Shown one piece after another: positions 2,495 through 9,156 of a stretch of 33,922 nt of DNA. The notes under the pieces are model-generated. The model was not told the origin of the DNA, did not search any database, and was given only the letters and a program-made list of their open reading frames with translations. The DNA lies in contig JAKAWJ010000020.1 of the NCBI GenBank assembly GCA_021817005.1, forward strand, positions 1-33,922. The letters are read 5' to 3'. Source of the DNA: an archaeon. GTDB lineage: Archaea; Thermoproteota; Thermoprotei_A; Marsarchaeales; Marsarchaeaceae. A program made the translations under genes and the position numbers. Numbering within the stretch: the stretch's first letter is position 1; each line of letters starts with the position of its first letter.

Positions 2495-3796
2495 TTGTCT
2501 ACGGAGAAGTTCGACGCAATAGTGGTCGGGGCTGGACCTGCGGGAACGGCTGCGGCCCTGACTATGGCGAAAGGGGGGCTCTCGGTCGCCCTTATAGAGC
2601 GCGGCGAGACGCCGGGCGCTAAAAACGTGTTTGGGGGAGTAGTCTACAAATGGCCTTTAGAAGAAATCATCCCCAAGTTTTGGGAAAAGGCCCCCATTGA
2701 AAGGAAGATTATAGACCACAGAATGGTAATACTTGGAAAGGACTCGGGATTTTCAGTATCATACAAGGATGATTATCTAGGGATGGAGACAAGAGGGGGG
2801 TTTACCGCTTTGCGCTCCAAGTTCGATCCTTGGTTCGCCCAGCAAGCTGAAGAGGCCGGAGCTACCCTAGTCACATCCATGCCAGTCTCCGAGGTCATCG
2901 AGGAAGGCGGTCGAGTGGTGGGAATTCGCGCCGGCAGAGGAAAGGAGAACGAGCTCTATGCTCAAGCCATTGTGGCCGCTGATGGAGTTATGTCCACCGT
3001 GCTTCAGAAGGCTGGCATAAGGGGTCCTCCTGCCCCGGAAGACGTTGCGATTGGACTGAAAGAGGTGATTGAATTACCCTCCGAGACTATAGATTCAAGG
3101 TTCAACCTCAAAAGAGGATACGGCGCACGGCTGGATTATCTTGGTTCAGTTGCCAGAGGGAAATCGGGTGGCGGATTTGTTTACACAAACTCTAATACTC
3201 TTAGCGTTGGTATTGCAGTGCTTCTTAGCCATCTTCTTGAACTGCATTGTAAACCATACGAAATATTGGACGAATTCAAGTCCCACCCGGTAGTCGCCCC
3301 CCTGCTGGAGGGCGGGCGTGTGAAGGAGTATCAGGCGCACCTGATACCCGAAGGCGGGCTCCAATCTATTCCGCCGCTTGCTAGTCGTGGTGTCCTGGCA
3401 GTTGGCGACGCGGCAATGCTCTGTTTGTATCCAGAAGGTACTAACATGGCAATGGCATCGGGTGTAATGGCTGGTAAAACAATTTTAGAGAGCAAAAAGG
3501 CTGGAGACTTTTCGATCCAGAGACTCATGCTTTATGAAAGATTGATGAAAGAAAGTTACATCTTTAAGGAGCATTCTAGGAAAAAGAACTACCATAATAT
3601 CCTTACTTCAGGCGACAGATTCAACACAGACTATCCTGATGCGATTACTGAAATCATGCGGAATATACTTGTAGTTGATGGGGTTGACCGCGGATCAAAG
3701 CACGCAGCAGCTAGGAAGGTAATAAGAGACAAAGTTGGCTACGTGAGAGTTCTCCGCGACTTGTATCGCGATATTTGGTCGGCTCTGCCATGGTAA
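2495..3796 (+). CDS. fixC: FixC / ETF-quinone oxidoreductase-like flavoprotein
   Basis: A 433-residue FAD-dependent dehydrogenase of the FixC/EtfC family. The N-terminal dinucleotide-binding motif VGAGPAGTAAA is at residues 11-21, followed by the FixC-type GAKNVFGG segment. The second FAD motif is in GVLAVGDAAMLC, followed by PEGTNMAMASG. FixC receives electrons from the ETF heterodimer and passes them to membrane quinone. The start is TTG, since no ATG precedes the FAD motif. Its stop overlaps the ATG of fixX (ATGGTAA). It is the first gene of a four-gene operon with fixX, etfB and etfA, the set known as FixABCX or EtfABCX. Confidence 0.93.
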   Translation: MSTEKFDAIVVGAGPAGTAAALTMAKGGLSVALIERGETPGAKNVFGGVVYKWPLEEIIPKFWEKAPIERKIIDHRMVILGKDSGFSVSYKDDYLGMETRGGFTALRSKFDPWFAQQAEEAGATLVTSMPVSEVIEEGGRVVGIRAGRGKENELYAQAIVAADGVMSTVLQKAGIRGPPAPEDVAIGLKEVIELPSETIDSRFNLKRGYGARLDYLGSVARGKSGGGFVYTNSNTLSVGIAVLLSHLLELHCKPYEILDEFKSHPVVAPLLEGGRVKEYQAHLIPEGGLQSIPPLASRGVLAVGDAAMLCLYPEGTNMAMASGVMAGKTILESKKAGDFSIQRLMLYERLMKESYIFKEHSRKKNYHNILTSGDRFNTDYPDAITEIMRNILVVDGVDRGSKHAAARKVIRDKVGYVRVLRDLYRDIWSALPW

Positions 3797-4083
3797 ACCC
3801 TCCGTCAAGGAAGATTGATGAGCGCCTCTATGTAAATCGCTATAATGTACATTCCGAAAATCACCTTCATGTTGACCAGTCCAAATGTCAGGAGTGCAGG
3901 GACAAACCCTGCACTTTCTCGTGTCCTGTCGATGACTATGTCTGGGACCCTGAACTCAAGCGTCTTACTGTGTTTTACGAGGGCTGTGTCGAATGCGGAG
4001 CTTGCGTAGTGGTGTGCCCCTACCACAAGATAGCCTTGGATTACCCGCCTGCTGGCAGAGGTGTGAATTTCAGATTTGGTTAG
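3790..4083 (+). CDS. fixX: FixX ferredoxin-like iron-sulfur protein
   Basis: A 97-residue ferredoxin-like partner of FixC. It has eight cysteines in two groups: C33, C36, C41, C45 (C-x2-C-x4-C-x3-CP) and C66, C69, C72, C76 (C-x2-C-x2-C-x3-CP). The second group is a clear [4Fe-4S] motif. I chose the ATG at 3790, which overlaps the fixC stop in ATGGTAA. A TTG at 3775 would add five residues and lengthen the overlap. The 3' end overlaps the TTG start of etfB by eight bases. Together with FixC it should form the quinone-reducing module. Confidence 0.92.
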   Translation: MVNPPSRKIDERLYVNRYNVHSENHLHVDQSKCQECRDKPCTFSCPVDDYVWDPELKRLTVFYEGCVECGACVVVCPYHKIALDYPPAGRGVNFRFG

Positions 4084-4894
4084 TGGAGCGAGCGTTGGCC
4101 TGAACATTCTGCTTGCGGTGAAGCAGGTTCCCGATGTATCTGAACTCAGATTGGACCCCGTGACTCATTCGCTTTTGAGAGAGGGCGTACCGAGCGTGCT
4201 CAATCCCTACGACCGTTATGCGTTGGAAGCTGGTCTCCGTCTGAAGGAAATTCATGGAGGCAGATTAACAGTCGTGAGTATGGGTCCCCCTCAGGCGAGA
4301 AAGGCTCTTCAGGAGAGTTTGGCACTAGGAGCAGACGAGGCTGTGCTTCTTACTGACCGGGCTTTCGCAGCAGCAGATACTTGGGCAACTGCATATACTC
4401 TCTCAGTCTTTGCCAAAACTTTACCTTTTAATATGGTCCTTACAGGACTGAAAGCGATCGACGGAGAAACAAGCCAGGTTGGCGCCGAGCTCGCGGAGTT
4501 CCTTGACATTCCGCATGCTTCCTACGTTCGAAAGATCGACCTTAGGGAGGACATGCAAGGAGTGACCATAGAGCGCCAGCTTGAAAACGGCTACGATGTC
4601 TGGGAGCTTCCCCTCCCGTGTCTGCTAATGGTGGCCAAGGAGTTTGGTCAACCACGGCTTGCAACTCTTCAGGGTTACATTCGGGCAAAGAGGCAGAAGA
4701 TACGCATACTTACTGCCCATGACTTGGAGGCACTGGGGGCTAATTCCGCGAATTTCGGTCTAAAGGGTTCTCCGACATTCATACCCAAGGTCTCGCCACC
4801 ACCCGCCAAGCCGCCCGGAACAATATGGAGTGGTGACCCCAAGGACTCTGTAAGGAAGCTCGTGGACGCGCTCTCAAGGGAGGGATTCGTCTAG
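4076..4894 (+). CDS. etfB: Electron transfer flavoprotein beta subunit (FixA/EtfB)
   Basis: A 272-residue ETF beta subunit. The N-terminal strand is NILLAVKQVPD. It is followed by LLREGVPSVLNPYDRYALE, the SMGPPQA loop, GADEAVLLTDRAFAAADT and the AMP/FAD-loop segment KAIDGETSQVG, all typical of the FixA/bifurcating-type EtfB group. In that group the beta subunit binds NADH and the bifurcating flavin, so bifurcation is plausible here but is inferred from family resemblance. The start is TTG at 4076, eight bases inside fixX. A proline-rich tail (about residues 235-250) extends beyond the common core. Confidence 0.92.
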   Translation: MVSGASVGLNILLAVKQVPDVSELRLDPVTHSLLREGVPSVLNPYDRYALEAGLRLKEIHGGRLTVVSMGPPQARKALQESLALGADEAVLLTDRAFAAADTWATAYTLSVFAKTLPFNMVLTGLKAIDGETSQVGAELAEFLDIPHASYVRKIDLREDMQGVTIERQLENGYDVWELPLPCLLMVAKEFGQPRLATLQGYIRAKRQKIRILTAHDLEALGANSANFGLKGSPTFIPKVSPPPAKPPGTIWSGDPKDSVRKLVDALSREGFV

Positions 4895-6003
4895 TGTCCG
4901 CGCAAAGCCAGTTTGGTGTTGTTACAGATTCAGAGACTCTGCGCCGTCTCGCGGAATACAAGGGTATTTGGACCTATGCCGAAGTCGAGAGCGGACAACT
5001 AACCGAAGTCAGCCTGGAGCTCTTGACAGGTGCGCGTTCAATTGCCAAAAAGACAGGTGAGCAAGTAGCTTCAGTGCTGGTGGGTCAAGAGGTGGAGCGG
5101 TTCGTAGCGGAGTTATCGGCCTTTGGCGCTGACAAGGTCTTCGTGATCCAGGACCCCCGGCTGCGATCTTATGCTTCTGATTCGTATACCGAGGCAGTTG
5201 CGCAGCTCACGAGGGAAAAAAAGCCCTCGGTCTTCCTCTTTGGAGCTAACAGAAACGCGAGAGATTTGGCTTCCCGGCTTGCGGGCAGGTTGAACACCGG
5301 CCTTGCAGCTGACTGTATTAAACTTGAGGTGAACGAGCGTGGCCAGCTCGAGCAGATAAGACCGGATTTCGGAGGTAAGGAGCTTTCGGTTGTGCTCGCC
5401 CCGAGGCACAGACCCCAGATGACAACAATACGTCCGGGCTCTTACCGAAAGCAGGAGCCAGACTACAGCAGAGTCTCTTCATCCGAGTACTTTGTCCCCA
5501 AGCTTTCAGAAAATCACTGTAGGATCAAAGTTCTGAAGAACGTGCGCCAGCCCATAGATCCGAGCGAAGACATCGAAAAGGCCACAGTGCTTGTGTCTGG
5601 AGGAATGGGCCTCCGTAGCAAGGAGAATTTTGAGCTATTACGTAGACTTGCCGGGTTGTTCGGTAATGCTTCTGTGGCAGGAACCCGTTCAGTATGCGAG
5701 AAAGGCTGGTTGCCCTCAAGTGTGCAGGTGGGGCAAAGCGGGAAGACTGTGTCGCCCAAACTCTATTTTGCCGTAGGCCTGTCAGGAGCGATACAGCATC
5801 TTGTAGGAATGCAGAACTCAGAGATAGTGGTGGCCATAAATTCGGATGCTGAGGCCCAAATTTTCAAAGTTTGCACTTATGGAATAGTCGGCGATTTATT
5901 CCAGGTAGTGCCACTTCTGATTGATGAGATTAAGAAGGTAAGGGTCGAGCGGAAGCTGATGCGTGAGACGGTTACGGTTGGAACACCAGCGGGGGACCCG
6001 TAG
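4894..6003 (+). CDS. etfA: Electron transfer flavoprotein alpha subunit (FixB/EtfA)
   Basis: A 369-residue ETF alpha subunit. The N-terminal domain begins YKGIWTYAEVESG. The linker has RPDFGGKELS and RPQMTTIRPG. The C-terminal FAD domain has QVGQSGKTVSPKLY, GLSGAIQHL, VVAINSDAEAQIF and YGIVGDLFQVVP. The flavin-contacting arginine is kept in GTRSV. The loop usually written SGGRG reads SGGMG. No extra ferredoxin domain is present at the N-terminus. The GTG start overlaps the etfB stop (TAGTG), giving translational coupling. It ends the fix/etf operon. Confidence 0.92.
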   Translation: MSAQSQFGVVTDSETLRRLAEYKGIWTYAEVESGQLTEVSLELLTGARSIAKKTGEQVASVLVGQEVERFVAELSAFGADKVFVIQDPRLRSYASDSYTEAVAQLTREKKPSVFLFGANRNARDLASRLAGRLNTGLAADCIKLEVNERGQLEQIRPDFGGKELSVVLAPRHRPQMTTIRPGSYRKQEPDYSRVSSSEYFVPKLSENHCRIKVLKNVRQPIDPSEDIEKATVLVSGGMGLRSKENFELLRRLAGLFGNASVAGTRSVCEKGWLPSSVQVGQSGKTVSPKLYFAVGLSGAIQHLVGMQNSEIVVAINSDAEAQIFKVCTYGIVGDLFQVVPLLIDEIKKVRVERKLMRETVTVGTPAGDP

Positions 6004-6723: not shown

Positions 6724-7287
6724 ATGACTACGGTAGTTGGTATAAAGACGCAGGGGGGAGTCGTGCTCGCGTCAGACAAGAGAGCGAGCAAGGGCTTCTT
6801 CATTGCATCAAAGGAAGCCCAGAAAATCTTCAAAATTGACGAATTCACGGCTTCGGCAATTGCGGGGCAAGTCTCGGATGCTGAGTATCTTGTCCACTTG
6901 GTGCAGGCCCAGAGAAGACTGATTGAATTGGAGCGGGGCTACAAGCCGTCAGTATTCGAAACTACGAGGTTGATCGCAAACTCTGCCTACTCCGGACTGC
7001 GAAACTACGCTCCTTTTCTTGCGGAATTTATTGTAGCCGGTATAGACACTGAGCCAAGGCTCTACTCTACAGATGTGAGCGGCGCAATATCACCCGAAAC
7101 TTTCGTCTCGAACGGCTCTGGTTCTCCGATTGCGTATGGAGTTCTAGAATCTACGTATAAGGATACAATGGACATCAAGCAGGCCGAGGCAGTAGCGAGA
7201 GAAGCGGTCAAGGCCGCGATGCAAAGGGATCCAGGTTCTGGAGACGGGCTCGAAGTGCTGGTTATCGCTGCGGGAGGCAGCCGCTAG
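6724..7287 (+). CDS. psmB: 20S proteasome beta subunit (catalytic)
   Basis: A 187-residue catalytic beta subunit of the 20S core particle. Counting the threonine after the initiator Met as Thr1, Asp17 and Lys33 fall exactly where the family has them (Thr1 TTVVG, Asp17 in ASDKR, Lys33 in AQKIF). The later catalytic-support residues are also present in GSGSPIAYG and RDPGSGDG. There is no propeptide beyond Met, so Met removal alone would expose Thr1. Many archaeal beta subunits carry a short propeptide instead. The stop overlaps the GTG of the alpha gene (TAGTG), giving a coupled beta-alpha pair. Confidence 0.95.
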   Translation: MTTVVGIKTQGGVVLASDKRASKGFFIASKEAQKIFKIDEFTASAIAGQVSDAEYLVHLVQAQRRLIELERGYKPSVFETTRLIANSAYSGLRNYAPFLAEFIVAGIDTEPRLYSTDVSGAISPETFVSNGSGSPIAYGVLESTYKDTMDIKQAEAVAREAVKAAMQRDPGSGDGLEVLVIAAGGSR

Positions 7288-7943
7288 TGTCAACCGGCCA
7301 GGAACGCTATCAGCCGTTCTTCTACGGCCCTGAGGGCAGACTGATTCAGGTTGAATATGCCCAAGAAGCGGTCGGAAAGGGTTCTACGACAGTTGGCATT
7401 AGAACGGACAATTTCTCGCTAATTGGCAGTCACGTGAGGCCGCCGAGAGAGCTAGTCGACCCCTATGATAAAATATTCGAAATAGATGAACATGTGGGCG
7501 CAACCGGAAGCGGTTACATCAGTGATATGCTAAGATTGATTGACGAGCTAAGAATTGAGAGTCAGCAGTACAGGCTCACCATGGGAACCCCAATCGACAT
7601 GTTCACGCTTGCAAAGAGACTCGGTCAGTATATTCACGAATATACTCTCTACTCCGTGCGCCTGCCTGCCTCGTCAATCATACTGGCTGGAGCCGACAAG
7701 CGGGGTACTCACCTGTATCAGGTCGACCCTTCGGGGACTTTCCTGAGAGGTTCAGCTTTTGCAGTTGGCAGGAACAGCGACAAGGCACTGGAGCTCATAA
7801 TCAAAGGCTACACCAGAGACCTTACTGTAGACAAAGCAAAGGATCTGGTTTCGTCGACCATTGAAGCTGCGGTGAATGAGAAACCGCTCTTGCAGTTCGG
7901 GGTTGTGGAGTCGCAGACAGGCAAGTTCAAGAGGGAAGTATAA
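7287..7943 (+). CDS. psmA: 20S proteasome alpha subunit, altered N-terminal gate
   Basis: A 218-residue alpha subunit, shorter than the usual 230-260. The H0-helix signature is intact: GPEGRLIQVEYAQEAV, then GSTTVGI. A lysine sits at the position used for docking ATPase C-termini (YDKIFEID). The gate segment before it is unusual. Alpha subunits normally read YDR followed by about six residues to SPDGR. Here YQP is followed by a spacer two residues shorter, so the gate Asp and Arg are missing. The GTG start overlaps the beta stop. A T-rich stretch after the stop (7958-7964) may end transcription. Confidence 0.92.
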   Translation: MSTGQERYQPFFYGPEGRLIQVEYAQEAVGKGSTTVGIRTDNFSLIGSHVRPPRELVDPYDKIFEIDEHVGATGSGYISDMLRLIDELRIESQQYRLTMGTPIDMFTLAKRLGQYIHEYTLYSVRLPASSIILAGADKRGTHLYQVDPSGTFLRGSAFAVGRNSDKALELIIKGYTRDLTVDKAKDLVSSTIEAAVNEKPLLQFGVVESQTGKFKREV

Positions 7944-8013: not shown

Positions 8014-9156
8014 GTGTTTGATGAACTCAAGAAGAAATCTATCCGTGACTTCCTTCGGCCGGTTCGAACTTTCGATGCAGACGAATCTCTTTCGCGCGTA
8101 GTTGGAGCGTTCAGTAATCCCCAAACGTTTGGGGTAGTAGTTAATCGAAACGGATCACACGGTGTGCTCACTGCGTCGAGGCTACTACGCGCGAAGTCTG
8201 CGGATACCAAGATAGCAACCATGCTGCAGCCTGCACCTCGGATTGAAGTCAGAGCAACAGTGGCCCAAGCGGCCCGCCTCTTCTACGAATCGAAACTTCC
8301 AGTGATGCCCGTCTATGATGGAACGGAATTCGCAGGATCGCTTTCCCCTTTCGACTTTTTGCCAGCCATGAGAGATTCGGAAACTGGCACGGAATTGGGC
8401 ATAAGTTCAATAATGGCGCCGGGGCCGGAGTCCATAAGCGCTCAGACACCGATATCCAAAGCAGTAGAACTCATGGCCTCAAAGAACATTGATTTTCTGC
8501 CGATAACCTCTGGACCGAGAAATGCAAAGATTATTGGAGTGGTCTCGTCGCGTGAGTTGGCACTGTATACGCTTGCTCCTGCGGGCAAAGTAAATGCAGG
8601 AGCTTTCGGGATTGAGGCACACAAAGCCTTCTCGAAAAGCATCAGGGGATTACTCGCGGTCAGCCCACTCACTCTGGAAATAACAGAAACTCTTCATGGG
8701 GCCCTTCAGAAGTTAGTCCCTGAGCGTTTCAATTGTGCGATAGTGTCTCTTGATGACGAAATGCAAGGGATTGTGACCCCACGAGAATTGCTCAGGCCCC
8801 TTACTGCAATGAATATTCGAACGGTATTACCAGTTACGATATCAGGGTTGGAAGCCAATTCAGCCGAAGTAGCCATAGCCAGACAGAAGCTCGGCGTAAT
8901 TGGAGACAGACTTTCCAAACTATACAAGGGGAAGTTCAGGATGAGCGCTACTGTGAAGCCTCTGCGCGGAACTCGGAAATTCGAAATTACCCTGCACCTT
9001 TACTCTCCTGGCTCTGAATCGGCCATCTATACTGAATCAGGCTTCGATTTGGGGAAGATATTTGATATCTTGGAAAGGCGGGCGAAGGAGCACTTGCATC
9101 GGGAAAGGAAGTCAAGGCATATTCGAACACGCAGAAAGTCCGAAGAATTCCAGTGA
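8014..9156 (+). CDS. Four-CBS-domain protein with a C-terminal HPF/RaiA-like domain
   Basis: A 380-residue soluble protein. Residues about 5-265 hold four CBS repeats (roughly 5-62, 66-120, 132-187 and 209-265), each ending in a strand plus GVV/GIV-type turn. CBS tandems bind adenine nucleotides. Residues about 271-370 resemble ribosome hibernation factors of the HPF/RaiA (S30AE) family. They show a first strand PVTISGLEANS, a helix ending in KLYKGK, three strands with FEITLHLY and ESAIYTE, then a final helix DLGKIFDILERRAKEHLHR with a basic tail KSRHIRTRRK. The domain match is by eye. I infer an adenylate-responsive ribosome-binding protein; it could instead be a CBS protein with an unrelated fold. 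GTG start. Confidence 0.75.
   Translation: MFDELKKKSIRDFLRPVRTFDADESLSRVVGAFSNPQTFGVVVNRNGSHGVLTASRLLRAKSADTKIATMLQPAPRIEVRATVAQAARLFYESKLPVMPVYDGTEFAGSLSPFDFLPAMRDSETGTELGISSIMAPGPESISAQTPISKAVELMASKNIDFLPITSGPRNAKIIGVVSSRELALYTLAPAGKVNAGAFGIEAHKAFSKSIRGLLAVSPLTLEITETLHGALQKLVPERFNCAIVSLDDEMQGIVTPRELLRPLTAMNIRTVLPVTISGLEANSAEVAIARQKLGVIGDRLSKLYKGKFRMSATVKPLRGTRKFEITLHLYSPGSESAIYTESGFDLGKIFDILERRAKEHLHRERKSRHIRTRRKSEEFQ

Follow-up and report, generated by a model that had tools for sequence, protein, structure and literature searches.

The open reading frame at positions 8014–9156 of the window (the whole 33,922-nucleotide stretch of DNA analysed, from an archaeon of the Marsarchaeaceae) very probably encodes a divergent archaeal ribosome hibernation factor of the HibA family, with the function assigned by homology. 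HibA was described in Pyrococcus abyssi (Pab0961) as a protein composed of four CBS domains and a C-terminal HPF/RaiA domain (Madru et al., Nat Commun, April 2026; PMC13324472). When P. abyssi was stressed, its 70S particles were seen to contain HibA: the HPF domain lay in the mRNA/tRNA channel of the small subunit (30S), and the CBS module was located at three positions on the 50S subunit. The deletion of hibA in T. barophilus delayed regrowth and lowered 70S (PMC13324472). The window protein was classified as a HibA member because of its sequence homology and predicted fold and, as the family was published in 2026, it adds a diverged sequence to a known family and does not found a new one. 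The preliminary description had read four CBS domains and an HPF/RaiA-like C-terminus in the same frame, and this layout was borne out by the Pfam CBS model, a chain of profile comparisons and a Foldseek search. The features of the gene are as follows:

8014–9156, plus strand: hibA-like gene, a single open reading frame of 380 aa with a GTG start, stop codon included
8041–8364, plus strand: CBS1 and CBS2 (PF00571), approximately residues 10–58 and 67–117, boundaries approximate
8401–8562, plus strand: CBS3, residues 130–183, the best Pfam CBS stretch, with the motif GVVSSREL
8569–8637, plus strand: loop between CBS3 and CBS4, residues 186–208, putative counterpart of the HibA PTC loop, sequence TLAPAGKVNAGAFGIEAHKAFSK
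8638–8799, plus strand: CBS4 (PF00571), approximately residues 209–262, with the motif GIVTPREL at residues 252–259
8806–9135, plus strand: predicted HPF-type domain, residues 265–374, from AlphaFold2, Foldseek and the hhalign chain
9073–9153, plus strand: basic C-terminal tail, residues 354–380

The gene and its CBS module

The GTG start of the gene is plausible, since GTG-FDEL also begins the relatives L007 and L008, encoded in two genomes from a different genus of the same family. Among the relatives collected from whole genomes, full-length homologues of the window protein were present in Thermoproteota. The nearest other genus showed 29–31% identity, and the scan of the genome collection returned solely two contig pieces of a sister species. 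Just upstream of hibA, a proteasome beta-type gene is directly followed by an alpha-type gene (6724–7943), and the region 2495–6003 encodes, in a row, an ETF dehydrogenase-like protein, a ferredoxin-like protein and two ETF subunit-like proteins, identified only by reading the translations. An ETF dehydrogenase-like gene was also seen on the sister-species contig terminating in the N-terminal part of hibA (L036). Proteasome genes adjoining hibA were not found in the relatives examined, in which unrelated genes occupied this place. Because the upstream neighbours differ in this way, no operon argument was made for hibA.

The Pfam CBS model PF00571 matched four stretches of the window protein (E 3.7e-22), corresponding to the four N-terminal CBS domains of HibA, and the motifs of the first two were GVLTASRLL (residues 50–58) and GSLSPFDFL (residues 108–116). 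In a phmmer search against the PDB, the window protein matched chain 9l96_a over residues 20–352 (E 6.4e-13) and chain 9sr9_H over residues 20–266, encompassing the CBS module (E 2e-10). The latter chain, labelled 'Dehydrogenase' in the PDB, most likely is the P. abyssi HibA, judging by its length of 392 aa, its date and its ribosome context. Homology to the characterised HibA is seen in the matches to 9sr9_H and to the CBS–HPF chain 9l96_a. The phmmer alignment of P. abyssi HibA with the window protein was free of gaps across the region holding the PTC loop (190–207), which suggests that the long loop between CBS3 and CBS4 is kept.

CBS modules commonly bind adenylates. The module of P. abyssi HibA shows the highest affinity for AMP, followed by ADP and ATP, with one AMP per module bound at the CBS3–CBS4 interface with a Kd of 12 uM (PMC13324472). 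These properties would favour a true energy sensor, in which AMP or ATP at CBS3/CBS4 switches the binding of the protein to the ribosome or its release; the preliminary description had supposed idling according to the energy state. However, AMP and ATP caused no clear change in the conformations of HibA, its ribosome binding or its distribution on ribosomes (PMC13324472). Moreover, the alignment revealed that both the CBS3 and CBS4 motifs of the window protein carry E where the HibAs called here Sulfolobales-type carry D, and that H, not D, is present in the CBS3 motif of 29/29 aligned ammonia-oxidiser and near relatives, the CBS4 of which keeps D (both names are working labels of this analysis). 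In L007 and L008, D is retained in both motifs. With E in place of D, even nucleotide binding by the window protein is only putative. Switching by adenylates is considered unlikely, although more probable than the other alternatives. Thus, of the idling of ribosomes according to the energy state proposed earlier, the hibernation part stands by homology with the HibA architecture, whereas the energy control finds no backing in the published ribosome data.

The HPF-type C-terminal domain

The last 110 residues of the window protein were not matched directly by any Pfam or NCBIfam model, including PF02482 and TIGR00741. The curated PF02482 cut-off of 23.7 bits was not reached by the window protein, nor was there any match to this model in its genome. 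A search of the PDB with a four-sequence profile of the window C-terminus returned nothing, and a profile of PF02482-positive C-termini, when run on the window's own genome, missed the window protein. At the same time, Thermoproteota proteins of 370–440 aa with a like layout had C-termini scoring above the PF02482 cut-off, and L054, encoded in an ammonia-oxidising genome and related to the window protein over its full length, scored 32.3 bits. Since direct recognition failed, the assignment to HPF was tested through such intermediates by profile–profile comparison.

The hhalign comparison of C-termini linked the taxonomic family of the window protein with the ammonia-oxidiser homologues (probability 99.1, E 5e-19), and the ammonia-oxidiser branch with the PF02482-positive set of HibA-type proteins from Thermoproteota (99.3, E 2e-20), the two links being not fully independent because L054 was present in both sets. 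When the four sequences of the window's family were compared directly to the PF02482-positive set, the probability was 92.5 and E 4.8e-7. The PF02482-positive profile, confronted with the PDB, detected a bacterial HPF (E 5e-7) and the putative HibA chain 9sr9_H (E 4.2e-6), and with a profile including the window sequence, the top four PDB matches were bacterial HPFs (E 6.5e-4 to 5.9e-3).

The structure of residues 265–374 was predicted with AlphaFold2 at moderate confidence (mean pLDDT 69.6, pTM 0.59) from two near-identical sequences, the window protein and the sister-species copy; a full-length model from two sequences was poor (pLDDT 41). Within the 110-residue domain, the model contained a strand at 10–12, a helix at 20–39, strands at 45–52, 59–66 and 73–80 and a helix at 82–107, so that the order of strand, helix, three strands and helix, earlier read from the letters in the last ~100 residues, was recovered. 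The best 19 Foldseek matches in the PDB were all HPF/RaiA/pY proteins, with the best E of 5.1e-4 and TM-scores of about 0.5–0.67 when normalised to the length of the query and up to 0.76 when normalised to that of the target; a prediction lacking the HPF fold, on which the earlier reading was to be dropped, was not obtained. As profile–profile comparison, the PDB profile search and structure prediction with Foldseek agreed, the predicted HPF/RaiA-type fold of the C-terminal domain was regarded as confirmed.

The basic character of the C-terminal tail, also indicated previously, was evident from 11 K/R versus 5 D/E in the last 27 residues, and basic tails were found in the relatives as well. 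By eye, the beta2–beta3 hairpin of the HPF domain is short (LRGTR), in contrast to the longer hairpin of other Thermoproteota members. In HibA, the HPF domain carries two archaeal-specific insertions (PMC13324472). A four-residue deletion between the last strand and the last helix of the domain was considered as a branch marker (32/32 versus 26/26) and rejected as an alignment artefact, because the branch aligns without gaps in this place to the profiles of Sulfolobales-type HibA and bacterial HPF.

Proposed action on the ribosome

Judged from its P. abyssi homologue HibA, the window protein would insert its C-terminal HPF domain into the mRNA/tRNA channel of the 30S subunit, and its basic tail would lie close to the site where the mRNA exits. 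On the 50S subunit, the disk formed by the four CBS domains would fill vacant tRNA sites, at the peptidyl-transferase centre and on the uL5 or the L1-stalk side. Together, both parts may keep the 70S ribosome inactive and its active sites shielded until growth resumes. Ribosome binding, inhibition of translation and preservation of 70S particles are properties carried over to the window protein from the published family by homology.

A CBS–HPF protein could also act off the ribosome and regulate something else, like the related CBS-module protein HhpR, a transcription regulator. CM-3/HhpR demonstrates that modules of four CBS domains can serve as regulators, pull-downs in Thermococcales associated HibA with proteins of DNA replication and recombination (PMC13324472), and the C-terminal domain of the window protein is far diverged. 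However, this domain keeps the predicted HPF fold and the basic tail, and the entire domain order is conserved across many families, whereas the stand-alone HhpR-type proteins are devoid of the HPF domain, which makes a role away from the ribosome quite improbable. Less credible still is a chance likeness to HPF in a protein that has four CBS domains of the ordinary kind and an unrelated tail, since, even though no HPF model matches the window protein directly, the profile–profile chain, the profile search of the PDB and Foldseek each point to HPF.

The divergent branch and known systems

In a quick tree, the family of the window protein grouped with the ammonia-oxidiser branch (support 96) and not with the Sulfolobales-type proteins, despite the fact that the window genome belongs to the same class as the Sulfolobales-type genomes; with long branches present, this grouping is tentative. 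In an ammonia-oxidising family designated f16, 86 of the 151 sampled genomes were matched by the HPF profile. About 68 of the 151 genomes (~45%, counted from the listing) encoded the fused CBS–HPF protein in a long frame, and 17 more possessed only a stand-alone HPF domain of 112–134 aa. The family f16 probably corresponds to Nitrosopumilaceae, as judged partly from archaeal AmoA, detected in 8/8 of its genomes tested, and from the number of genera. In the ammonia-oxidiser genome G398, a second copy was seen at C3:208045–209165, with the CBS–HPF frame apparently split in two pieces, and in another one, G282, contigs C84 and C26 encoded the fused protein as well as an HPF domain standing alone.

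The profiles used to chart the published distribution of HibA may overlook diverged branches, and the main text names Nitrosopumilaceae among the lineages lacking identifiable factors (PMC13324472). The window protein reveals such a branch in an uncultivated lineage of Thermoproteota and, according to the census, the branch is present in many ammonia-oxidising archaea. It is conceivable, albeit at somewhat less than even chances, that the branch comprising the window protein fills much of the reported Nitrosopumilaceae gap and that adenylate sensing has been changed or lost in it. If these proteins are working hibernation factors, the suggested absence of such factors from this major group of nitrogen-cycling archaea would need revision.

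Among other archaeal factors, Dri and stand-alone CBS-module proteins also employ CBS modules in hibernation but have no HPF domain (PMC13324472); Dri consists of two fused four-CBS modules, unlike the window protein with its four CBS domains and HPF domain in 380 aa. The window's own genome encodes a stand-alone protein comprising three or more CBS domains (L003:2-553, contig C30, truncated at the start of the contig), which in the PDB matched chain 9zni_6 best (E 2.9e-24). This may represent a distinct CBS-module protein present alongside HibA, a combination called rare in the published text (PMC13324472). The 'ribosome dimerising' factor mentioned in the preliminary description is a different protein, the 30S–30S dimerisation factor aRDF, which binds eS32 and, according to the same text, is confined to Pyrococcus (PMC13324472).

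Bacterial HPF/RaiA/pY proteins (PF02482, TIGR00741) have the fold predicted for the window C-terminal domain but no CBS module, and are linked to it in sequence via intermediates only. The best phmmer match in the PDB, 9l96_a, is an archaeal CBS domain-containing protein of 406 aa, and its alignment, at low identity, reached part of the HPF domain. The Sulfolobales-type CBS–HPF proteins (L037–L043 and others, ~381 aa) share the architecture and the taxonomic class with the window protein; they exceed the PF02482 cut-off, whereas the window protein instead groups with the ammonia-oxidiser branch. In comparison with P. abyssi HibA, the window protein shows low identity, a C-terminal domain too diverged for PF02482, CBS3 and CBS4 motifs with E for the usual D, and a hairpin shorter than in other Thermoproteota members. 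Both proteins, of 380 and 392 aa, respectively, have in common the four N-terminal CBS domains, a CBS3–CBS4 loop of equal length and a C-terminal domain of the HPF/RaiA type, predicted in the case of the window protein.
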